Positions 4,086 through 20,506 of a stretch of DNA of 57,893 bases are shown here, piece after piece. Below the pieces are notes generated by a model that saw only the letters and a program-made list of their open reading frames with translations, was not told the origin of the DNA and ran no database searches. This stretch comes from Pseudofrankia coriaricola (lineage in GTDB: Bacteria; Actinomycetota; Actinomycetes; Frankiales; Frankiaceae): NCBI RefSeq assembly GCF_001854805.1, contig NZ_MBLO01000033.1, forward strand, positions 1-57,893, given 5' to 3'. Positions within the stretch are counted from its first letter, which is position 1. Each line of letters starts with the position of its first letter. Position numbers and translations under genes: made by a program.

Positions 4086-4129
4086 GTCACACACCGTGAC
4101 GAACTTCGTCCTCGCAACACAGACGAAAC
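4086..4129 (+). promoter_or_regulatory. glnA upstream region with candidate operators
   Basis: Between the divergent RDD gene and glnA lies a GlnR-like half-site pair, GCAAC-N6-GAAAC (4114-4129), 99 bases before the glnA start; the consensus of actinobacterial GlnR sites is GTnAC-N6-GAAAC. A perfect small inverted repeat, CGTCAC-N5-GTGACG, lies just upstream (4085-4101). A TATCCT sequence at 4185-4190 could be a -10 element. The site is weaker than the one before glnII. Confidence 0.4.
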
Positions 4130-4227
4130 ATGCTAGCCATGCTCACTTCACACCGCGGGGTTACGCACCGCGTCCGGATATGGGTATCCTATTGGGCCAG
4201 ACAGCGTGCCACGCGGGTGGAGGGTGA

Positions 4228-5652
4228 ATGTTCGCGAACGCCGACGAAGTGCTCCGATACATCCGGGACGAAAATGTCGAGTTCATCGACGTGCGTTTCT
4301 GTGACCTCCCGGGCGTCATGCAGCACTTCACGATTCCGACGCAGGTCTTCACGGAGTCGGTCTTCACCGACGGCCTCATGTTCGACGGCTCCTCCATCCG
4401 TGGCTTCCAGGCCATCCACGAGTCGGACATGCTGCTGCTGCCGGACCCGCGGACCGCGTTCCAAGACCCGTTCCGTGAGCACTCCACGCTGGCGATGACC
4501 TTCTTCATCCACGACCCGATCACCAAGGAGGAGTACTCCCGCGACCCGCGCAACGTGGCGCGCAAGGCGGAGGCATACCTGCGCGGCTCCGGGATCGCGG
4601 ACACGGCGTACTTCGGGCCCGAGGCCGAGTTCTACATCTTCGACGACATCCGGTACGAGTACACGCCGCACGGCTCGATGCACCAGGTCGACTCGGTCGA
4701 GGCCGCGTGGAACAGCGCACGCAAGGAGGAGGGCGGCAACCTCGGCTACAAGCCGAGATTCAAGGGCGGATACTTCCCCGTGCCGCCGACCGACCACTTC
4801 ACCGACCTTCGCTCGGAGATGGTCAAGACGCTGATCAAGGTCGGCATAACCGTCGAGATGCAGCACCACGAGGTCGGCACCGCCGGCCAGGCGGAGATCG
4901 ACTTCCGCTTCGACACGCTACTGAAGACCGCCGACAACCTGATGCTCTACAAGTACGTGATCAAGAACGTCGCCCGTTCTCGCGGCCGCACCGTCACCTT
5001 CATGCCCAAGCCGCTCTTCCAGGACAACGGCTCCGGCATGCACTGCCACCAGAGCCTCTGGAAGGACGACGGCCCGCTGTTCTACAGCGCCGAGGGCTAC
5101 GGCGGCCTGTCCGAGACCGCCCGGCACTACATCGGCGGGCTGCTGCACCACGCCCCGGCGCTGCTGGCGTTCACCAACCCGACGACGAACTCCTACCGGC
5201 GGCTGGTGCCCGGCTACGAGGCGCCGGTCAACCTGGTCTACTCGGCCCGCAACCGCTCGGCCTGCTGCCGGATCCCGCTGGGCGGCGACTCGCCGAAGGC
5301 CAAGCGGATCGAGTTCCGCGTGCCCGACCCGAGCTGCAACCCGTACCTGGCGTTCTCGGCGATGCTGATGGCCGGGCTCGACGGCATCAAGAACAAGATC
5401 GAGCCGCCGGACCCGATCGACAAGGACCTCTACGAGCTCCCGCCGGACGAGCTCGCCGCCGTCCCGCAGGTGCCCGGGTCGCTGGAGGCCGTGCTCGACC
5501 ACCTCGAGGCCGACAACGAGTTCCTCACCGCCGGGGACGTGTTCACTCCGGACCTCATCGAGACCTGGCTGGACTACAAGCGCACCCATGAGGTGGACGC
5601 CATCCGCCTGCGTCCCCACCCCTTCGAGTTCGACCTCTACTACGACATCTGA
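4228..5652 (+). CDS. glnA: Glutamine synthetase type I (GSI-beta)
   Basis: 474 residues; ATG 4228 is preceded by GGAGGGTGA. It makes glutamine from glutamate, ammonia and ATP as a dodecamer in the cytoplasm. Visible family features are the N-terminal [17 protein letters not shown] beta-grasp part, the [11 protein letters not shown] loop, the catalytic [10 protein letters not shown] metal ligands, the [15 protein letters not shown] segment, the ATP-binding [20 protein letters not shown] motif and the NRSACCRIP region. The adenylylation site is intact: Tyr402 in DKDLYELPP, so the enzyme should be switched by GlnE, encoded 5 kb downstream. Length is normal (468-478). A strong terminator follows, so the gene is probably monocistronic. 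Confidence 0.98.
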
Positions 5653-5684
5653 GGCAGCGTCACCAGGGGTGGCTTTTTTGCCCG

Positions 5685-5719
5685 GGCCTCGCCGTCCGTT
5701 TTGGACGGCGAGGCCTTTT
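5685..5719 (+). terminator. Rho-independent terminator of glnA
   Basis: A perfect 13-bp stem (GGCCTCGCCGTCC at 5685-5697 with its complement at 5703-5715), a five-base loop GTTTT and a TTTTA tail. It begins 32 bases after the glnA stop. Confidence 0.93.
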
Positions 5720-6258
5720 ACGGGCGGACGGCCCCAGGAGCGGTCGTCATCGACGTGTCGGGTGGGCGCGGGGTCGCGGGCGACATCACGCGAGCGGGGG
5801 CACGAGAGCGCGGATGCCCAGCTCCTCATACGTCCAACCGAACGTGCGCAGCACGGTGTGACCTGCGCGGGAAATCGCCATTCGCGGCCAGTGCCGCCAT
5901 GTGAGAAAAGATGGGAAAACGGCGGTGCCGACTCAGTGGGCATCCGGGCCGCAGAACGGGCCACGCCGTCGCGACTCGGCGGGCCGCGGCCCCCATCGAG
6001 GTTCGTCCGCCGGCGGGAAGAACGCGCCGCCCATGGGGATACGGCCCCACCGGGCCGCCCGAGAGCTCCCGGCCGGTCTATGAGGCCGGCTACCGGCGAG
6101 CCGTCACACAACGCCCGGATGCCCGCACAGGGTGGGTTCATCTACTGAGGTGTGCGGCCATCGTGGTGTGTCGGCGAGCACATTTCGGGCTGTTTTCCGG
6201 CCCCGTTTCGGGAGCCGTAACCGTCGCGCGCGCCGACCGAGCGTCAACAGCGCGCCCT
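5720..6258. other. glnA-glnII intergenic region, no gene recognised
   Basis: About 540 bp with no frame that reads like protein on either strand. Short A-rich patches (around 5900-5915, GAGAAAAGATGGGAAAACGG, and around 6180-6200) stand out from the GC-rich background and could hold a promoter or a small RNA, but nothing specific is visible. Confidence 0.4.
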
Positions 6259-6307
6259 GAGACGCAGATTTAACAATCGGGGAACTGATCGGTAACGGGA
6301 CCCGGTA
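6259..6307 (+). promoter_or_regulatory. Candidate GlnR operator upstream of glnII
   Basis: Four half-sites follow at exact 11-bp steps: GAGAC (6259-6263), TTAAC (6270-6274), GGAAC (6281-6285) and GTAAC (6292-6296). The actinobacterial GlnR box is GTnAC-N6-GAAAC repeated at 11 bp, so both motif and phasing fit. It lies about 115 bases before the glnII start. GlnR is the OmpR-like global nitrogen regulator known to bind before glnA and glnII in Streptomyces. This would give nitrogen-controlled transcription of GSII. Confidence 0.65.
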
Positions 6308-6410
6308 AGGCTCCAGTCGGACCCTCCCGTCAGTCGCGGCTAGCGTCGGCCCTCCCCCGGCCGGCCCCATCGTCGCGTGTCTAGGACCTGCCGATCACGG
6401 GGAGTATTGA

Positions 6411-7469
6411 GTGAGCTTTCAGGCCGAGTACATCTGGATCGACGGCACCGAGCCGGAGCCGCTGCTGCGCAGCAAGACCCGGATCATCAAGGACGGCAAG
6501 GAGCCGGAGATCTGGGGCTTCGACGGCTCCAGCACGAACCAGGCGCCCGGCTCCAACTCGGACTGCGTCCTGCGCCCGGTCTTCACCTGCCCGGACCCGA
6601 TTCGTGGCGGCGACAACATCCTGGTGATGTGCGAGGTGGAGCTGACCGACTTCACCCCGCACCCGACCAACACCCGCGCCAAGGCGCGAGAGCTGGCGGA
6701 GAAGTACGCCGACTTCGCCCCGCACTTCGGCATCGAGCAGGAGTACACGTTCTTCCAGAACGGCCGCCCGCTGGGCTGGCCGGCCGTGGGCTTCCCGGAG
6801 CCGCAGGGCCCGTACTACTGCGGCGTCGGCGGCGAGAAGATGCCCGGCCGGGACATCGTCGAGAAGCACACCCAGGCGTGCATGGACGCCGGCCTCGCGA
6901 TCGAGGGCACCAACGCCGAGGTCATGATGGGCCAGTGGGAGTTCCAGATCGGCGTGCTGCCGGCGCCGGCCATCGGTGACCAGATCTGGGTCGCCCGCTG
7001 GCTGCTGCACCGCATCGCCGAGGACTTCGGCGCGTCGGTCTCCTTCGCCGCCAAGCCGGTCCCCGGCGACTGGAACGGCGCGGGCGCGCACACCAACTTC
7101 TCCACCAAGCAGACGATGGAGAGCTGGGACGCGATCGTCACCTGCTGCGAGGCGCTCGGCACCCGGGTCATGGAGCACGTGACCAACTACGGCTACGGCA
7201 TCCAGGACCGCCTCACCGGCAAGCACGAGACCGCCCCGTGGAACAAGTTCTCCTGGGGTGACTCGGACCGCGGCGCGTCGATCCGCATCCCGTGGGCCGT
7301 CTCGAAGGCCCGCAAGGGCTGGCTCGAGGACCGCCGCCCGAACGCGAACATGGACCCGTACGTGGTCTCCGCGCTGATGATCGACACCACCTGCAGCGCG
7401 CTGGCCGGCGACAAGCCGATCCTGTTCGTCCCCTCCCAGGCCACCGCGGCGCAGCCCGCGACCGTCTGA
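6411..7469 (+). CDS. glnII: Glutamine synthetase type II (eukaryote-like GSII)
   Basis: 352 residues from a GTG at 6411 preceded by GGGGAG at 7-base spacing. The protein is the short eukaryote-type GS: N-terminal AEYIWIDGTEPEPLLRSKTR, WGFDGSSTNQAPGSNSDC, the catalytic FGIEQEYTFFQ, the ATP-binding NAEVMMGQWEFQIG and KPVPGDWNGAGAHTNFS segments, and the C-terminal DRRPNANMDPYVV. GSII has no adenylylation tyrosine, so it is not controlled by GlnE; control is expected at transcription, in line with the GlnR-like site upstream. In Frankia, GSII is known as the heat-labile enzyme induced under nitrogen limitation, and its gene is known to sit next to the GSI gene. Confidence 0.97.
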   Translation: MSFQAEYIWIDGTEPEPLLRSKTRIIKDGKEPEIWGFDGSSTNQAPGSNSDCVLRPVFTCPDPIRGGDNILVMCEVELTDFTPHPTNTRAKARELAEKYADFAPHFGIEQEYTFFQNGRPLGWPAVGFPEPQGPYYCGVGGEKMPGRDIVEKHTQACMDAGLAIEGTNAEVMMGQWEFQIGVLPAPAIGDQIWVARWLLHRIAEDFGASVSFAAKPVPGDWNGAGAHTNFSTKQTMESWDAIVTCCEALGTRVMEHVTNYGYGIQDRLTGKHETAPWNKFSWGDSDRGASIRIPWAVSKARKGWLEDRRPNANMDPYVVSALMIDTTCSALAGDKPILFVPSQATAAQPATV

Positions 7470-7969: not shown

Positions 7970-8325
7970 GTGATCGTTGATCGGGCCGCCGTCGCCGCGG
8001 CACTGCCGGGCATCGAGATCGGCGGCCAGATCGGTGCCGGCGCGTTTGGGCTGGTGCTAGCCGGCCGTCACCGCGCCCTGAACCGAGACGTCGCGGTCAA
8101 GGTGCCTCGGTGGCGCAGCGGGATTTCTCCGTCGCCCACGACAGGTGGTACAGCATGACCGTCACCGCGCGGGGTGGCACCTACACCATCGCCGTCGACG
8201 GGACGACAGTCGTCCAGTACCAGGACGCGACCGGCAAGCTCAGCCAGCAGGGCGGGATCGGTTTCGTCGGAAACGGCTCGACCGTGCTGTCCGACGACCT
8301 CGAGGTCCGCGCCCTGCCCACCTGA
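7970..8325 (+). pseudogene. Broken Ser/Thr kinase gene with an unrelated C-terminal domain
   Basis: The GTG at 7970 opens a kinase N-terminus (VAAALPGIEIGGQIGAGAFG, LVLAGRH, DVAVKV) nearly the same as the starts of the two intact kinase genes at 17154 and 20506, including the glycine loop and catalytic Lys. After about 44 codons homology stops. In another frame (about 8110-8325) a C-terminal piece follows: RDFSVAHDRWYSMTVTARGG, TYTIAVDGTTVVQYQD, GGIGFVGNGSTVLSDDLEVR. That piece reads like a jelly-roll domain of the LamG/DUF1080 type. The kinase body, membrane segment and linker are missing, so an internal deletion with frameshift is the simplest explanation. It is a third member of the kinase family seen in this window. 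Confidence 0.8.
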
Positions 8326-8983: not shown

Positions 8984-10351
8984 ATGGACAAGCAGCAGGA
9001 GTTCGTGCTCAGAACGCTGGAGGAGCGGGACATCCGCTTCGTCCGGCTCTGGTTCACCGACGTGCTGGGCGTGCTGAAGTCCGTGGAGATCGCTCCGGCG
9101 GAGGCCGAAGGCGCGCTCCTGGAGGGCATCGGCTTCGACGGCTCGGCGATCGAGGGGTTCGCGCGCCTGCACGAGGCGGACATGCTCGCCCGCCCCGACC
9201 CGTCCACCTTCCAGGTGCTGCCGGGACGCGGCGAGGGAACGCTCACGGCGCGGATGTTCTGCGATGTCGTCACTCCCGACGGCCTGCCCGCCGTAGCCGA
9301 CTCACGCTGGGTGCTGCGCCGCGCGCTCGCGGCCGCCGCCGAGGCCGGGTTCACCTTCTACACCCACCCGGAGATCGAGTTCTTCCTGCTCAAGGAGCCG
9401 CCGCGGCGCGGCCAGCCGGTGCCGCAGCCGGTGGACGAGTCCGGGTACTTCGACGTCACGCCCAACGACATCAGCCATGACTTCCGCCAGCAGGTGATCG
9501 GCATGCTGGAGCGGCTCGGCATCTCCGTCGAGTTCAGCCATCACGAGGTGGCGCCGGGCCAGCAGGAGATCGACCTGCGCTACGCCGACGCGCTCACGAT
9601 CGCCGACAACGTCATGACGCTGCGCCAGGTCGTCAAGGAGGTGGCGCTGCGGCAGGGCAGCTACGCGACCTTCATGCCGAAGCCGTTCACCGAGCATGCC
9701 GGCTCCGGCATGCACACCCATATGAGCCTCTTCGAGGGCGACCGCAACGCCTTCTACGACCCGACCGACGAGTACCGGCTCTCCAAGGTCGCCAAGGCGT
9801 TCATCGCCGGGCTGCTGGCGCACGCGCCCGAGATCACCGCCGTGACCAACCAGTGGGTCAACTCCTACAAGCGGCTCATCAGCGACTCGGCCGAAGGCGA
9901 GGGCGCCGAGCTGCTGGAGGCGCCGGCCTACGCCTGCTGGGGGCACAACATCCGCTCCGCCCTGGTCAGGGTGCCGCTCTACAAGCGGGGCAAGGCGAAC
10001 ACGGCACGGGTGGAGTTCCGGCTGCCGGACAGCGCCTGCAACCCGTACCTGACGTTCGCGCTGATGCTCGCGGCCGGGCTGCGCGGCATCCAGGGCGGCT
10101 ACGACCTGCCGCCGCCCGCCGGCGACGACATCTGGTCGCTTACCGAGGCGCAGCGCCGGGAGCGCGGGATCCGGGCTCTTCCCGGATCCCTGTCCGAGGC
10201 GATCGCGGTGATGGAGACGTCGTCGCTGGTCCGGGAGACGCTCGGCAACGAGCTGTTCGAGTTCTTCCTGCGCAACAAGCGCGCCGAGTGGACCTCCTAC
10301 CGCCGCCAGGTCACCCAGTTCGAGATCAACCGCTACCTGCCACTCCTGTAA
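8984..10351 (+). CDS. glnA2: Glutamine synthetase-like enzyme, GlnA2 type (no adenylylation Tyr)
   Basis: 455 residues; ATG 8984 follows GTGGAGGGTTC. The GSI fold is complete: FDGSAIEGFARLHEADM, the metal-binding HPEIEFFLL, SHHEVAPGQQEIDLRY, the ATP site TFMPKPFTEHAGSGMHTHMS, and RVEFRLPDSACNPYL. The adenylylation position differs: the usual LYDLPP is replaced by DDIWSLTEAQ with Trp384 at the Tyr position, so GlnE should not modify it. In Mycobacterium the same gene sits beside glnE (Rv2222c). In Streptomyces coelicolor, GlnA2 from the same neighbourhood has been described as a gamma-glutamylpolyamine synthetase, so polyamine use is an alternative to glutamine synthesis. The glnE gene starts 33 bases downstream, probably in one operon. 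Confidence 0.92.
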   Translation: MDKQQEFVLRTLEERDIRFVRLWFTDVLGVLKSVEIAPAEAEGALLEGIGFDGSAIEGFARLHEADMLARPDPSTFQVLPGRGEGTLTARMFCDVVTPDGLPAVADSRWVLRRALAAAAEAGFTFYTHPEIEFFLLKEPPRRGQPVPQPVDESGYFDVTPNDISHDFRQQVIGMLERLGISVEFSHHEVAPGQQEIDLRYADALTIADNVMTLRQVVKEVALRQGSYATFMPKPFTEHAGSGMHTHMSLFEGDRNAFYDPTDEYRLSKVAKAFIAGLLAHAPEITAVTNQWVNSYKRLISDSAEGEGAELLEAPAYACWGHNIRSALVRVPLYKRGKANTARVEFRLPDSACNPYLTFALMLAAGLRGIQGGYDLPPPAGDDIWSLTEAQRRERGIRALPGSLSEAIAVMETSSLVRETLGNELFEFFLRNKRAEWTSYRRQVTQFEINRYLPLL

Positions 10352-14031: not shown

Positions 14032-17000
14032 TCAGCGGACGCCGAGGGCGGAGAAGTCGACCGAGTCGTACGCGGGCTGGTAATAGACGTTGGTGAGGTT
14101 GGAACTGTAGATGTTCGTGACCTTGTCGTACGTCACCGGTATGTAGGCCGCCGTGTCGAGCACCCTCCGCTCGACGGCGGCCCACCGGGCCGCGGCGGTC
14201 CCGGACGGGTCGGCGGCGACGGCGCTGTCCGACATGTCCGCCACGAAGGCGTCGTCCATGGCGGTGTTCACCGCGGGGTCGCTGAGTTCCGCGATGTTCC
14301 GGTTGTCCGTGTCGGTAATCCTGCGGCCGTCGGCCAGGTTGGTGAAAATGCCGGCGGGCGTCGGCCAGCCGGCGTTGTAGCCGAGGAGCGCCAGGCCGAC
14401 GCCCTGGTCACGCATCTTCCGCGGCGAGAAGATCAGGGCGTCGTAGTCGTCCGAACCGAGCGCCGAGATCTGGAGGTTGACGCCGATTCCGGCCAGAGAT
14501 TTCTTGAGGGCCTCCGCCTGGCTCTTGGACCTGCTGTCCTCGAAAACCACGATCTTGACTGGGAAGCCGTCCGGCCGCCCGCAGGCCGCGAGCTCCTGCT
14601 TCGCCTGGACGACGTCGCCCGAGCCGGCGCTCGGGTAGAGGTCGAACGTCGAGTGGTACCGCAGCGGCGGGGGGACCAGCGTCGGCGCGGCGACGGCACG
14701 CTCCGGGCCTCCACGGGCCGTGACCTGCGCCTGCCGGTCGATTGCCCAGGCGATCGCCTTACGGCAGTGGACGTTGTCGAAGGGCGTCAAGGTGGTGGTG
14801 ACGCTCAGCAGACGCAAGACGCCGATAGTGACGGTCAGGCGCTGGTTGTCCCGCATCGCCGAGCCCGTCAGTGGCGTCTGCAGGGTGGCCTGCGAGGCGC
14901 CCGTCTGCCCGGCGAACACGTCCGTGTGCCCGGAGAGGATCTGCTCGTCGATGGTCTCCAGAGGAAGCCGCATGGTCACCTGGATCCGGTCCGGCAACGC
15001 CGTGTTCACCAGGTCGGTCGCCGGGTCCCACTCGGAGTTACGGACCAGCGTCAGCGACTGGCCCCGTTGGTAGAACGCGAACTTGTAGGGGCCCGACGAG
15101 ACCGGGCGGTCGGCGTACTGGGCTTCGCCGTCCTTCGCCTGGGGCACCGGCGTGGACGCGGGCGTCGCCATCAGATAGTTCCAGTCTCCGAACGGCCTGG
15201 TCAGGTGAAAGACGATCGTCTGGTCGTCCGGAGTGTCGATTGATTTCAGGCCGAGCTTGTCCGGGCTCGGGTCCTGATAGGGCCCTGGATAACGGTTGTT
15301 GGGGTCGTCCAGGTACCGGGTGAGTCCCTTCAGGCCGGCGGTGACGAGCTGGGTGTCGAACAGTCGCTCGATCCCGTACTTGATGTCCCTGGACCTGATC
15401 GGCGTCCCATCCTCGAACTTGAGGCCGGCGCGCAGGGTGTACCGCCAGGTGGCCGCATCGGTGGACGTCGGGACGGCGGTGGCGAGATCGCCGATCAGGT
15501 CGGTCGTGCCCGGCTTGTAGGTCAGCAGCTGCCGGGAGTACCAGCGCTGCTGGGCCCAGCAGCTGTCGGCGTTGCTGCGCTGCGGGTCCCAGGAGTCGCA
15601 GTCGGCCGTGGCGGCCACCCGCAGGGTCCCGCCCCTGGCGGTGGACGGGCTCAGGACAGGGCCCACGACCGCGAGCGGCGGCGTGGCGCTCTCCGTGGCC
15701 GCCGCCGCCGTCGAATGGCCAGGGCCGCCGCCCTCGTTCGGGCCGTCGGCGCGTGGGATCAGCACCAGGGGAAGGACGACGGCGAGCGCGCCCACCGCGC
15801 CGGCGATCAGCATCCACCACCGCCGCCGGTGCCTGGACGACCCGCGGGCCGCCGAGGCGGCTGCGGACCGCTTCGAGACCTGCGCGGCCGGGCGGGGGGC
15901 GGACGACGCCCCGACCAGAGTCGGCTGCCCGGTGGGGACCTCCGGACCGGCGGGGCCTGGCCTGGCCGGACCGGGCCGGCTGGGCGGAGTCAGCGGGCCG
16001 GCCGGTGGCGCGGGCATGGGCACGGGCCCAGGCACGGGCCACCCCGCGGCGGGCTGCCGCTGGACGGGCGACGAGGGCGACGGGGCGGTGGGCGACGGGG
16101 CTGGCCCGGCCCCCGCGGTCGGCTGAGGGCCGCCGCCGAGCGGGATGGTCGGGCCGTCGGAAGCGCCCGCGCTCCCGCCCGTCGCCATGCCGGCGGCCGA
16201 CGTGCCCGGGTGCGCGGCCGGGTGCGCGGCCGGGTGCGGGCCGGCGGTGGGCCGGGAACCGGTCGACGGGCCGTCGGCCGCGGCGCGCACGTCGTCGTCG
16301 AGCTGGACCTGCAGGTCCGACCGGGTGAGCCAGCCACGGCCCAGCACGGCGGCGGCGGCCGCGGCGAAGTCCAGGCCGAACGCCCGGGCGCTGGGATAGC
16401 GCATCGCCGGGTCCGGGGCGAGGGCGCGCAGCACGACGTTCGCGACCGGTGCCGGGACGCCCGGTGGCCGCGGTGGCGGGGCGGTCAGGCGGCGCTGCCA
16501 GAGCAGCTGCACCGGCAGTGCCCGGTCGATCGGGGGCGCGCCGGACAGAAGCTGGTACAGCACGACGCCCAGGGCGTAGATGTCGGTCGCCGGGCCCAGC
16601 TGCCCGCTGGTGATCTGCTCGGGAGCCATGTACAGCGGGGTGCCGACCTGTGCGCTGGCGGTCGCGACCGTTCCCTCCAGCATCTTCGCGACGCCGAAGT
16701 CGGTGACCTTCGCGGCGCCGGCGGCCGTGAACAGCACGTTGTCCGGCTTGATGTCGCGGTGCAGCACGCCCCGGTCGTGGGCATAGCCGAGCGCGGAGGC
16801 GACCGCGAGCCCCACGGCGCAGCCCGCCTCCGGCCGCGTGTCCTCCCGCCGCCGGGCCAGCGTGCCGCCGACCAGCTGCTCCATCACGATCAGGCAGAGG
16901 TCCGCGGTCTCGACATAGTCGTAGACCCGCACGATGTGGGGATGGTCCATGCGGCCCAGCAGCTGGCCCTCGGACGCGCCGTCCGGGCCGCCGCCGTGGG

Positions 17001-17154
17001 CCGGCGGGCGGGCCGGCAGCACCTTGATGGCGACGTTGTGCCGCAGGTGCCGGTGTTGGCCGGCGAGCACCAGGCCGTAGGCACCCGAGCCCAGCCGGCC
17101 CCCGATCTCCAGCCCCGGCAGCGCGGCGGCCACCGACTCCCGGTCAACGATCAC
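14032..17154 (-). CDS. Receptor-like Ser/Thr kinase fused to an extracellular family-5 solute-binding domain
   Basis: 1040 residues from a GTG at 17154, chosen because the paralogue starts at the same MIVDR. Residues about 15-265 are a eukaryote-like kinase: glycine loop GSGAYG, VAIK with Lys44, Glu62, HRDIKPDN with Asp134, DFG at 152-154, GTPLYMAPEQ. A Pro/Ala-rich linker follows, then one hydrophobic helix near 440-460 (WWMLIAGAVGALAVVLPLVL after Arg-rich residues, so the kinase is cytoplasmic). From about 500 to the end is an SBP_bac_5 domain, the oligopeptide/nickel-type ABC ligand binder (GGTLRVAATADCDSWDPQ; SRQLLTYKPG; FEDGTPIRSRDIKYGIERLF; DDQTIVFHLTRPFGDWNYLM). No ABC permease or ATPase gene lies nearby. 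Inference: ligand binding outside controls kinase activity inside. The 3' end converges on glnE. Confidence 0.92.
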   Translation of the reverse strand: MIVDRESVAAALPGLEIGGRLGSGAYGLVLAGQHRHLRHNVAIKVLPARPPAHGGGPDGASEGQLLGRMDHPHIVRVYDYVETADLCLIVMEQLVGGTLARRREDTRPEAGCAVGLAVASALGYAHDRGVLHRDIKPDNVLFTAAGAAKVTDFGVAKMLEGTVATASAQVGTPLYMAPEQITSGQLGPATDIYALGVVLYQLLSGAPPIDRALPVQLLWQRRLTAPPPRPPGVPAPVANVVLRALAPDPAMRYPSARAFGLDFAAAAAAVLGRGWLTRSDLQVQLDDDVRAAADGPSTGSRPTAGPHPAAHPAAHPGTSAAGMATGGSAGASDGPTIPLGGGPQPTAGAGPAPSPTAPSPSSPVQRQPAAGWPVPGPVPMPAPPAGPLTPPSRPGPARPGPAGPEVPTGQPTLVGASSAPRPAAQVSKRSAAASAARGSSRHRRRWWMLIAGAVGALAVVLPLVLIPRADGPNEGGGPGHSTAAAATESATPPLAVVGPVLSPSTARGGTLRVAATADCDSWDPQRSNADSCWAQQRWYSRQLLTYKPGTTDLIGDLATAVPTSTDAATWRYTLRAGLKFEDGTPIRSRDIKYGIERLFDTQLVTAGLKGLTRYLDDPNNRYPGPYQDPSPDKLGLKSIDTPDDQTIVFHLTRPFGDWNYLMATPASTPVPQAKDGEAQYADRPVSSGPYKFAFYQRGQSLTLVRNSEWDPATDLVNTALPDRIQVTMRLPLETIDEQILSGHTDVFAGQTGASQATLQTPLTGSAMRDNQRLTVTIGVLRLLSVTTTLTPFDNVHCRKAIAWAIDRQAQVTARGGPERAVAAPTLVPPPLRYHSTFDLYPSAGSGDVVQAKQELAACGRPDGFPVKIVVFEDSRSKSQAEALKKSLAGIGVNLQISALGSDDYDALIFSPRKMRDQGVGLALLGYNAGWPTPAGIFTNLADGRRITDTDNRNIAELSDPAVNTAMDDAFVADMSDSAVAADPSGTAAARWAAVERRVLDTAAYIPVTYDKVTNIYSSNLTNVYYQPAYDSVDFSALGVR

Positions 17155-17440
17155 GATGCCCGCCCGCGGCATGCCCATGCCCAGCCAGAAGCACCCGAAC
17201 CCCGCGAACCCAACACATAATGCGCCGATGGTAGGCCGACCATCCGCGTGCCGTCGGCTAGGTCGCCTCAAACCCCGTCATCGCCGGTATGAGGATGAGC
17301 GGTGCCCAGGCAGCGCCGCGTCGACGGCGGCCACCATCAGAGGCTTGGCCGGAACGGGCCACCCTCATAGGGCGGATCGGGGACTAGCTCGACGGCAAGG
17401 TGACCGCCACCGATCGGCGGTTCCGGCGTCGCGGGCGCAC

Positions 17441-20400
17441 TTAGCCGGTCACGCCGAGCGAGGCGAAGTCGATCACGTTGTAGGCCGGGGAATAGACGAT
17501 GTTCGTCACTCGGTCGCTGTAGACGTTGAACGCCTTGTCGTAGATCAGCGGGATGTAGGCCGCCGAGTCGACGACCGCCCGGTCGACCGCCGTCCAGGCA
17601 CGCTGCGCGACGCCGTCGTCGGAGGCGGCCAGGCCGGCGTCGATCCCGTCGTTCACCGTCTTCGAGTCGAGCTCCGCGTAGTTGCTGTTCCCCGCGGGAA
17701 AGATCTTGCGCCCGTCCACGATCGGGCCGAGGAAGCCGGAGGCGGACGGCCAGTCCGACCCCCAGACGGCGATCGCGAGCCCGTAGCCGTTCCTCTGCAT
17801 CGTCGCCGGTACACCGAGCTCGGCCGAGTAGTACCGGTCGGCGGGGAACGCCTTGACGGTGACGCTGATCCCGACCCGCTTCAACGAGGCCGTCAGCGCG
17901 TCGGCCTGTGCCTTGTACTTGGCCGCGTCCTGGGTGACCAGGGTCGTGGCGAACCCGTCCGGGTGGCCGCACGCGGCCAGCTCCTCCCTGGCCTTCGCGA
18001 CCGAGCCCCGGCCGTCCGTCGACGGGTAGAGGTCGAAGGGCTGGTAGTACCGCAGCGTCGGCGGCAGCATCGTCGTCGCCACATCGCCGGCGGTCGAGCC
18101 GCCGCGCGCCTCGATCTGGGCCTGCCTGTCCACGGCCCAGGCGACCGCCTTTCGGCAGTGGATGTTGTCGAACGGCTTCACCGTCATGGTGACGCTCAGA
18201 TAGCGCAGAAAACCGTTGTGGTCGAGGCTGGTCCGCGACGAGCGCAGTGTCGGGTCGGCCACCAGCCGCGCCCGCGCCGCCTCCTGAACGCCGTTCTGGG
18301 CCGCGACGACGTCGCCGTCACCGGCCAGGATCCGGCTGTCGATGGCGTCGAGGTCGAGGCCCATCGTCTCCTCGATCCGGTCGGGCAGCGCCTTGTTCAC
18401 CGGGTCGGTCGCCGGGTTCCACTGGTCGTTGCGCACCAGGACGAGTTTCTTACCGACCTCGTAGGACTCGATCTTGTACGGGCCGGACGAGACCGGGTGG
18501 TCGGTGTACCTGGCGGCGGTGTCGCGGGCGCGCGGCACCGGGGTCGTCGTCGGCATGGCCATGACGCGGTTCCAGTCGCCGAACGGCTTGTTCAGGTGGA
18601 AGACGATCGTCCTGTCGTCCGGGGTCTCGACCGACGTCAGGCCCAGCTTCTCCGGCGAGGTGTCCGTGTATGGACCGCCATACGGCGGGTTGGTCTGCAG
18701 GTAGTCGATGACATAGGTCGGGCCGCCGCTGACGACGTCGGTCGCGAACACCCGCTCGACGGCGTACTTGATGTCCCTGGAGGTGATCGGCGTCCCGTCC
18801 TCGAACCGAATCCCCTCCCTGAGGGTGTATGTCCACGTCCTGCGGTCGGTCGACCGCGCGGGCGCGGTCGCGAGGTCGCCGACCAGCTCGGTCGACATCG
18901 GCGCCCGGGTGTAGGTCAGCAGCTGACGGGAGAACCAGCGCAGCTGCGACCAGCAGTTGCCGTAGTAGGTGCGCTGGGGATCCCAGTAGTCGCAGTCGGA
19001 GTCGGCGAGCACCCGCAGCGTGCCGCCCTTCCTGGTCGACGGATGCAGCACCCGCGCCGAGGTCACCGCCGGGTCGAGCAGACCCCGCGTCGCGGAGGTC
19101 GCCGGCGACGCTGTCGCGCCCCGCGCGTCGCGGCCGGGCTTCGAACCGGGCAGCAGGAGCAGGACGAGGACCAGCGCGAGCACGCCGGCGACCGCCGCGC
19201 CGCCGCCGGCCCATCCCCAGACGCGCCGGGAGCCACGCCGTCGCGGACGCGACCGGCGGGCGTCGTAGGGCGCCGCCCACGGGTTCCCGCCGGACGGCGC
19301 GGGCCCGCCGGCGAGGCGGGTGGCCGCCTGATCGTCCACCGGCTGCCGGGCGTCCCCCCAGTAGGACGGGGCGGGACCGCCCGGTGTCGAGGCGGCGCCG
19401 AGCCCCGGCATCGCCTGCCCGGGCTGCCCGGGCGGGTGTCCGGGCTGGGCAGCCGGGCCGGTGGGTCCGGGCCCGGCAGCCGCGTGGCCACCGCGTGCCG
19501 GCGCGGCACCCGCCAGCCCGAAGGGTGCCGGTCCCACGGGCGGCGGACCCACGGGCGGCGGGCCGGGGATGACGGGCCCGGCGCCCGGAATCGCGGCAGC
19601 CGGAGGTCCGGGCATCGCCGCCCACGGCGGCACGGCCGCGCGGCGCACCTCATCGTCCAGCCAGAGGCGCAGGCCCGAGCGGCCCAGCCAGCCGGGCCCA
19701 TAGGCCGTGGTGGCGGCCGCCGCCAGGTCGAGCGCGAACGCGTGCGCGGTCGGGTGACGCCAACCCGGATCCTTGGCCAGGGCACGCAGCAGCACGGTCG
19801 TGAGCCGCAGGGGCACGCCCGCCGGGGGCGCGGGCGCCGCGGTCAGGTGGTGCTGCCAGAGCACCGCGAGCGGCAGGTTGGCGGGGAACGGCGGGACGCC
19901 GGCGAGCAGCTGGTAGAGCAGGACACCGAGGGCGTAGACGTCGGTCGGCGGTCCGAGCCGGCCGCCGATGATCTGTTCCGGCGCCATGTACAGCGGCGTT
20001 CCGACCTGGGCGCTCGCGGTGGCCGCCGAGCTCTCCAGCAGCTTCGCGATGCCGAAGTCGGTGACCTTGACGACTCCGGCCGCGTCGAACATGACGTTGT
20101 CCGACTTGATGTCGCGGTGCAGCACGCCCGCGTCGTGGGCGTAGGCGAGACCGGAGGCGACGGCCAGGCCCACCCCACAGGCGGTCTCGGCGGTGATCCC
20201 CGCCATTCGGCGGCGGGCCAGGGTGCCGCCGGCGAGGAGTTCCATCACGACCAGGCTCAGCTCGGCGGTCTCGATGTAGTCGTAGACCCGGACGATGTGC
20301 GGATGGTCCAGACGGGCGAGCAGCTGTGCCTCGGCGCCGAAACCGGAATTGCCCTCCTGGGCCGCGGGCAGCACCTTGATGGCTACCTCGCGATTGAGGC

Positions 20401-20506
20401 TGCGCTGGCGACCGGCGAGCACGAGGCCGAAGGCACCGGCACCCAGCCGCTCGCCGATGTCGAATCCGGGGAGCGCCGCGGCCACCGTCTGCCGGTCGAC
20501 GATCAC
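17441..20506 (-). CDS. Second receptor-like Ser/Thr kinase with family-5 solute-binding domain (tandem paralogue)
   Basis: 1021 residues from GTG 20506. The layout matches the downstream paralogue: kinase residues 15-265 (GAGAFG loop, VAIK Lys44, HRDIKSDN, DFG, GTPLYMAPEQ), a Gly/Pro-rich linker, one membrane helix near 430-455 (WAGGGAAVAGVLALVLVLLL), and an extracellular SBP_bac_5 domain (KGGTLRVLADSDCDYWDPQ; FEDGTPITSRDIKYAVERVF; DDRTIVFHLNKPFGDWNRVM). In the catalytic loop Pro is replaced by Ser (HRDIKSDN); this is tolerated in active kinases. The linkers are unlike each other while the kinase and binding domains are well conserved, so this is an older tandem duplication. The 286-bp gap to the next gene may hold a separate promoter. 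Confidence 0.92.
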   Translation of the reverse strand: MIVDRQTVAAALPGFDIGERLGAGAFGLVLAGRQRSLNREVAIKVLPAAQEGNSGFGAEAQLLARLDHPHIVRVYDYIETAELSLVVMELLAGGTLARRRMAGITAETACGVGLAVASGLAYAHDAGVLHRDIKSDNVMFDAAGVVKVTDFGIAKLLESSAATASAQVGTPLYMAPEQIIGGRLGPPTDVYALGVLLYQLLAGVPPFPANLPLAVLWQHHLTAAPAPPAGVPLRLTTVLLRALAKDPGWRHPTAHAFALDLAAAATTAYGPGWLGRSGLRLWLDDEVRRAAVPPWAAMPGPPAAAIPGAGPVIPGPPPVGPPPVGPAPFGLAGAAPARGGHAAAGPGPTGPAAQPGHPPGQPGQAMPGLGAASTPGGPAPSYWGDARQPVDDQAATRLAGGPAPSGGNPWAAPYDARRSRPRRRGSRRVWGWAGGGAAVAGVLALVLVLLLLPGSKPGRDARGATASPATSATRGLLDPAVTSARVLHPSTRKGGTLRVLADSDCDYWDPQRTYYGNCWSQLRWFSRQLLTYTRAPMSTELVGDLATAPARSTDRRTWTYTLREGIRFEDGTPITSRDIKYAVERVFATDVVSGGPTYVIDYLQTNPPYGGPYTDTSPEKLGLTSVETPDDRTIVFHLNKPFGDWNRVMAMPTTTPVPRARDTAARYTDHPVSSGPYKIESYEVGKKLVLVRNDQWNPATDPVNKALPDRIEETMGLDLDAIDSRILAGDGDVVAAQNGVQEAARARLVADPTLRSSRTSLDHNGFLRYLSVTMTVKPFDNIHCRKAVAWAVDRQAQIEARGGSTAGDVATTMLPPTLRYYQPFDLYPSTDGRGSVAKAREELAACGHPDGFATTLVTQDAAKYKAQADALTASLKRVGISVTVKAFPADRYYSAELGVPATMQRNGYGLAIAVWGSDWPSASGFLGPIVDGRKIFPAGNSNYAELDSKTVNDGIDAGLAASDDGVAQRAWTAVDRAVVDSAAYIPLIYDKAFNVYSDRVTNIVYSPAYNVIDFASLGVTG

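Follow-up and report, generated by a model that had tools for sequence, protein, structure and literature searches.

The 57,893 nucleotides of contig NZ_MBLO01000033.1 from Pseudofrankia coriaricola, referred to here as the window, make up the whole of one contig (C33) of an 11.2 Mb genome (G000), and this contig stops where the window stops. Two adjacent genes on its minus strand, encoding proteins A and B, probably specify single-pass receptor Ser/Thr kinases, in which the kinase domain would lie inside the cell and a family-5 solute-binding protein (SBP) domain, viz. SBP_bac_5, outside it, the latter being used for sensing rather than for import. As an internal kinase is joined here to an external binding domain of the importer type, A and B probably report molecules outside the cell by phosphorylation. 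The two genes and their domains are located as follows.

14032-17154, minus strand: protein A, the second putative receptor Ser/Thr kinase with an SBP_bac_5 domain, 1040 residues from GTG; orthologues in G005 and G006
14038-15648, minus strand: SBP_bac_5 domain of A, with Gly at the equivalent of DppA Asp408
15754-15813, minus strand: predicted membrane helix of A (hydropathy scan, charge bias)
16327-17154, minus strand: kinase domain of A (Pfam profile)
17441-20506, minus strand: protein B, putative receptor Ser/Thr kinase with an SBP_bac_5 domain, 1021 residues, GTG start; orthologue in G005
17444-19042, minus strand: SBP_bac_5 domain of B, with two co-varying Cys pairs and Asp at the DppA Asp408 position
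19151-19207, minus strand: predicted membrane helix of B, residues 434-452 (hydropathy scan, charge bias)
19682-20506, minus strand: kinase domain of B, residues 1-275, with HRDIKSDN, DFG and APE motifs (profile and motifs); PknB is the nearest solved structure

Architecture and conservation of proteins A and B

A first-pass annotation, made from the DNA letters only, had placed two open reading frames in the region 14032-20506 and proposed that each protein joins a kinase, one membrane helix and an SBP_bac_5 domain. Both reading frames are present, and the profile searches bear out this composition. The Pfam Pkinase profile (PF00069) matches A and B with 152.9 and 165.4 bits, respectively (cut-off 31.7), and SBP_bac_5 (PF00496) matches them with 180.4 and 223.1 bits (cut-off 32.4) over positions 2-364 and 1-363 of its 368 positions, by which near-full-length match the C-terminal domain is assigned to family 5. 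The Hanks-type kinase signature (viz. the glycine loop, the VAxK Lys, HRDxKxxN, DFG and APE) is present, and its last four elements are found in A, B and seven other fused proteins. In both A and B, a linker rich in Pro, Ala and Gly and a single hydrophobic helix separate the kinase from the SBP domain; this helix is the only strong one that the hydropathy scan detects between the domains, an extra weak peak being seen upstream of the likely start of A. Although the open reading frame of A opens upstream at TTG 17271, the protein likely starts at the GTG at about 17154, because the alignment of A with B, which shows 50.6% identity across almost the entire length, begins at the first residue of B. 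The 20 residues on the N-terminal side of the helix carry a net charge of +7, versus -1 (A) and +2 (B) on its C-terminal side, and on this bias the predicted topology is that of a kinase inside and an SBP domain outside. The signal peptide or lipobox anchor of an exported SBP is lacking in A and B, where the internal membrane helix takes its place. In addition, the Cys pairs at residues 505/518 and 784/846 of B co-vary exactly, the two members of the first pair occurring in the same 30 and those of the second in the same 38 of the 57 rows of an SBP set (72 rows, less 16 duplicates of overlapping loci, plus Escherichia coli DppA), with gaps scored as absent and the rows being related rather than independent. 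These pairs fit disulphides in an exported domain. The paired gain and loss of Cys residues across the SBP family also provides a usable clade mark.

The same architecture is found in same-genus orthologues, with G005 containing both A and B and G006 containing A. A sequencing-frame error or an assembly artefact between the two domains is ruled out by these orthologues, and the frame from the kinase to the SBP domain is thus intact, as had been supposed. A search of 35 genomes of the family with the SBP segment of B (E up to 1e-60, with the kinase confirmed in the same frame) identified fused proteins in five of them, viz. G000 and G005 (two each) and G006, G008 and G037 (one each); the related fusion of G008 and G037 is referred to here as protein C. 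Within the genus, three of eight genomes, counting that of the window, carry a fusion. The ratio of nonsynonymous to synonymous substitution rates (dN/dS) in four orthologue pairs, in two of which A of G000 was used, was 0.17-0.20 for the kinase, 0.31-0.47 for the SBP domain and 0.38-0.85 for the linker, in comparison to 0.26 for an importer SBP (G000 versus G005) and 0.09 for thrS. These values bear upon the possibility that A and B are recent, barely used fusions which are heading for decay, similar to a relic of a sister kinase located upstream in the same window, and the kinase array at the locus does indeed differ among genomes of the same genus. However, orthologues are found in two further genomes, the catalytic motifs are intact and dN/dS is well below 1 in both the kinase and the SBP domain, with the linker being higher, and it is extremely improbable that the two genes are decaying in this manner.

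Origin of the binding domains and their candidate ligands

Among solved structures, both SBP domains are closest to 2wok (OppA2, from clavulanic acid biosynthesis), which is matched over the full domain (E-values of 4e-133 for B and 7e-97 for A). The genome contains seven SBP_bac_5 stretches, and one of these (L003, contig C242) is an Opp/Dpp-type importer SBP that is 61% identical to B, carries a LAAC lipobox (by inspection) and is flanked on both sides by permease genes, with an oligopeptide-type ATPase gene further downstream. Directly behind this ATPase gene, a second, divergent SBP_bac_5 protein is encoded (C242:96730-97875, L007), and similarly placed matches are seen in genomes of the same genus. 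In trees based on 57 and 44 rows, both SBP domains group among unfused Frankiaceae SBPs, including the genome's own importer SBP; in the quick tree of 57 rows, A and B branch together (SH-aLRT, the Shimodaira-Hasegawa-like approximate likelihood ratio test, 93) beside unfused SBPs of the same genus (81). Taken jointly with the receptor-kinase interpretation as a whole, it is probable that the outer module of A and B descends from Opp/Dpp-type SBPs of the Frankiaceae.

Such a descent raises the question of whether the fused SBP domain still feeds an Opp/Dpp permease encoded elsewhere, in which case the kinase would sense or regulate transport, and A and B would be tethered transporter subunits first and sensors second. 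The first-pass annotation had noted that transporter genes are absent from the neighbourhood, and the genome-wide searches are in accordance with this, as none of the 68 BPD_transp_1 permease matches of the genome lies on C33 and no ATP-binding cassette (ABC) ATPase was found there among the 150 matches listed (150 of 404 candidates scored). The lack of a permease match on the contig speaks against a role as transporter subunit, while the existence of the importer with a closely similar SBP in the same genome speaks for it. The conserved positions likewise point both ways: of 231 columns in which 14 unfused SBPs (i.e., SBPs whose frame encodes no kinase, L003 being the one checked for neighbouring permease genes) show no variation, B retains 197, but A keeps only 156, and C keeps 139. 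Further, the corresponding locus of G004 contains two kinases that both lack an SBP domain, and the tie to transport is therefore not conserved. On balance, we consider it decidedly unlikely that A and B are primarily parts of a transporter, and the use of the binding domain as a sensor, as was originally suggested, is supported by the architecture of the proteins.

With regard to the ligands, the residue at position 408 of DppA is Asp (the letter being confirmed in the K-12 sequence), and we take this residue to hold the amino group of the bound peptide. The equivalent column has Asp in both B sequences and in both C sequences, whereas it has Gly in all three A sequences. Since the Asp408 equivalent is kept in B but lost in A, the two proteins probably bind different ligands. 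Most likely, B would bind a short peptide or a peptide-like compound held by its alpha-amino group, and A, which is without the amino anchor, would most likely answer to another ligand than B. No safe alignment was obtained for Arg355 of DppA. Nickel, which was among the ligands initially proposed, appears unlikely, as the NikA model TIGR02294 reaches only 48.8 and 55 bits (cut-off 393) and, in the same structure match lists for A and B, nickel-binding structures are far behind OppA2, the best solved relative. The plant- or cell-wall-derived peptides that were also proposed as ligands are a conjecture.

The OppA2 relationship is also of relevance to another explanation, in which the SBP domain would bind or scaffold without taking part in signalling, the kinase being controlled by something else. 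For OppA2, retention of an intermediate within a biosynthetic complex has been proposed; according to a review (PMC7830376), mutation of oppA2 leads to the secretion of N-acetylglycyl-clavaminic acid, a peptide to which OppA2, as part of a multi-enzyme complex, probably binds. However, other outer domains (3-keto-disaccharide-hydrolase-like, WD40 and FKBP) are found on the same kinase chassis, which is the usual pattern for swapped sensors, and a scaffold function of this kind is, in our view, very unlikely.

Related fusions, mechanism and known systems

The nearest named relatives of the A and B kinases, among the matches listed, are from Frankiaceae. Proteins with the same order of kinase, linker and SBP_bac_5 as A and B are also found in Streptomyces, viz. 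the plasmid-encoded WP_168720682.1 and WP_329468636.1, and one of this type is encoded at locus L197 of genome G103. The two plasmid proteins are 35-39% (kinase) and 26-29% (SBP) identical to B, and differ from it in lacking both the Cys pairs and the Asp, the DppA Asp408 column having Ser in both. A single clade of A, B and C is not rejected by the approximately unbiased test (p-AU of 0.061 for the SBP domain and 0.090 for the kinase), whereas a clade of A, B and C together with the two plasmid fusions is rejected for both domains (p-AU of 0.0002 and 0.0007), the kinase tree being based on 50 of 112 distinct kinases and L197 of G103 standing outside the trees. A single origin of all the tested fusions is thus excluded, and since the clade that includes the plasmid fusions is rejected, the kinase-SBP_bac_5 fusion is, on the evidence of these trees, one that arose at least twice, with the Streptomyces fusion being separate. 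The A/B/C type was seen in 4 of 296 genomes of the class sample for the SBP of B, and the Streptomyces type in the two plasmids and in 1 of 393 sampled class genomes (G103; 8 genomes with a match), the two genome counts being from class-level searches that scored at most five and at most three candidates per genome, respectively, under strict E limits, which rarer or more distant fusions can escape. Ten other stretches in the sample for the SBP of B, most of them with long open frames, have no B-like kinase in the frame of the SBP, and no kinase-SBP_bac_5 fusion was found by profile in the 80 loci kept from the listed contig-scan matches, which are mostly ordinary kinases.

SBP_bac_5 domains are also joined to other modules. 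In L104 (G037:C334, 8732-11368, minus strand), one frame of 879 residues contains Trypsin_2 (35.9 bits, cut-off 27.6) and SBP_bac_5, and it represents a second kind of effector joined to an SBP_bac_5 sensor. In L047 (G018:C224, 3-3344, plus strand), SARP-type Trans_reg_C and BTAD domains, a beta-propeller stretch and SBP_bac_5 are found in one frame of 1114 residues.

If A and B are receptor kinases, then the binding of a ligand would close the two lobes of the SBP domain, the closure of the lobes may move or dimerise the membrane helix, and the kinase would then phosphorylate its own Ser/Thr-rich activation loop and, afterwards, its targets. Several observations weigh against this interpretation or parts of it. 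Over the 50-65 residues of the helix and stalk, dN/dS is 0.35-1.18, and the coupling segment is thus poorly conserved, which speaks against any precise mechanism involving the helix. The AlphaFold models are poor, with a predicted local distance difference test score (pLDDT) of 44.9 and a predicted template modelling score (pTM) of 0.31 for full-length B, and of 44.0 and 0.40 for its SBP domain, the inputs having contained 7 and 4 usable sequences, respectively. In the careful SBP tree (44 rows, after omission of 13 long-branch rows, including the BTAD and protease fusions), A groups with SBPs of another genus (support 56/60), and the trees are compatible both with one uptake of an SBP domain by A and B and with two. 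Three unfused SBPs from this other genus (L068, L069 and L071) have Thr in the DppA Asp408 column, due to which the loss of this Asp should not be interpreted as being tied to fusion. Moreover, an Arg that is invariant in the 14 unfused SBPs is replaced by Gln in B and by Phe, Phe and Ala in the A proteins, and the identity of the importer's ligand is therefore not transferable to A and B. Lastly, the glnE neighbourhood of A and B is not common to protein C, which sits elsewhere, next to genes for GGDEF, TetR, P450, F420H2-quinone reductase and amidohydrolase proteins, and these neighbours give no clue to its ligand.

Of the systems which resemble A and B, the PASTA kinases PknB/Stk1 share with them a PknB-like kinase and an outside sensor, and PknB is their nearest solved kinase. 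However, A and B are not PASTA kinases, as the model NF033483 gives only 181.9 and 210.8 bits (cut-off 450) and its match stops at the end of the kinase. The SgrR protein of E. coli similarly employs an SBP_bac_5 domain as the sensor of a regulator, but it is a DNA-binding protein without a kinase or a membrane helix. The Opp/Dpp-type SBPs (OppA2, 2wok; E. coli DppA) are similar in the full-domain match and in the Asp408 equivalent of B; unlike them, A and B are fused to a kinase, anchored by a helix and without a permease on the contig, and A is also without the Asp. The nearest working analogue is the GlnH-GlnX-PknG system of Mycobacterium and Corynebacterium, where, according to PMC6069109 and PMC9769921, an extracytoplasmic, nutrient-reading SBP governs a Ser/Thr kinase on the other side of the membrane, and which has been linked to glutamate and nitrogen metabolism in Actinobacteria. 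As described there, this system consists of three proteins (viz. an SBP that is a lipoprotein, a membrane protein with four helices and the kinase), while A and B are one chain each, with a family-5 SBP and a PknB-like kinase.

Fusions of a kinase with an SBP are in part already known. In Table 1 of PMC13293324, which covers siderophore-cluster proteins of Actinomycetes, 5 of 55 SBP_bac_3 proteins have a further domain and this is Pkinase in 100% of them; these proteins resemble A and B in uniting a kinase and an SBP, but the SBP is of family 3 and not of family 5. For SBP_bac_5, the sole further domain in the same table is a TAT signal (1 of 221). Kinase-SBP_bac_5 proteins are present in public records under the names of transporter subunits, WP_168720682.1 and WP_329468636.1 being annotated just as 'ABC transporter substrate-binding protein', and no papers on such proteins were found within one literature collection. 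The interest of A and B therefore lies more in the swapping of sensors and in the importer relative present in the same genome than in a new system. The activating stimuli of bacterial Ser/Thr kinases are described in PMC6069109 as an outstanding question. The sensor of A and B is from a family for which ligand screens can be done in solution, and the change of ligand from transport to sensing, as well as the coupling of an SBP to a Hanks-type kinase through one helix, become directly testable.

The glutamine synthetase/glnE locus and its kinase array

In the window, A and B lie between a glyoxalase-like gene/thrS and glnE, and the upstream part of the locus contains three glutamine synthetase genes and the relic.

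4228-5652, plus strand: glutamine synthetase gene, glnA-like (by inspection)
6411-7469, plus strand: glutamine synthetase gene (Gln-synt_C and Gln-synt_N), which we take to be of the glnII-like type
7970-8322, plus strand: relic, with an internal deletion, of a sister receptor kinase whose outer domain is 3-keto-disaccharide-hydrolase/LamG-like
8984-10351, plus strand: third copy of a glutamine synthetase gene, 455 residues
10900-13935, plus strand: glnE, glutamine-synthetase adenylyltransferase (part searched), convergent with gene A, the two ends being about 100 bp apart

The first-pass annotation had counted two intact paralogues and one relic as an expansion of the family. The tandem paralogues are confirmed, but the relic, which we take to be that at 7970-8322 between glnII and the third synthetase gene, is not a remnant of an SBP-kinase: in it, residues 1-45 of a sister kinase abut the C-terminus of a 3-keto-disaccharide-hydrolase/LamG-like domain, and it is short of about 1.56 kb relative to its intact cousin in G006 (L040:190-2334). 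In this cousin, the kinase is joined to a 3-keto-disaccharide-hydrolase domain (37.7 bits, cut-off 26.8), and the gene is likewise located between glnII and the third synthetase gene. The array of G006 further contains A and two kinases without an SBP domain, that of G005 both SBP-kinases and a third kinase without one, and that of G004 its two SBP-less kinases, one of them with a WD40 propeller. In G001, G002 and G003, no such kinase match was found in the stretches of the glnE locus that were read, and the contigs of G007 at this locus are too short for a call. Related Frankiaceae kinases elsewhere have a C-terminal FKBP-type isomerase (L122 of Parafrankia soli, 4090-7173) or C-terminal WD40-like repeats (L121, 5959-8157, by inspection). 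The array is variable within the genus, with a constant kinase chassis and interchangeable outer domains, and it provides a natural set in which one chassis is combined with various outer domains.

From the glutamine synthetase/glnE neighbourhood alone, it could be proposed that the output of A and B acts on nitrogen assimilation. However, protein C is without this neighbourhood, and such an output is for this reason doubtful. A fuller scenario, in which the chassis was duplicated within the locus, importer-derived sensors were swapped onto it, B came to respond to peptide-like ligands and A to a new ligand, and phosphorylation sets nitrogen assimilation, would be rather unlikely. In G001-G003 and in other genera (L087-L102), glnA, glnII, glnE and the gene for the third glutamine synthetase are ordered and oriented differently than in the window. 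Three of the sister kinases (L039:8501-10603, L040:11191-12870 and L119:5411-7393) share a short conserved outer segment, YYVGV..GRVAIFQGV; the outer segments of those of L039 and L040 have no Pfam match, and this segment presumably resembles the outer part of PstP-type phosphatases.

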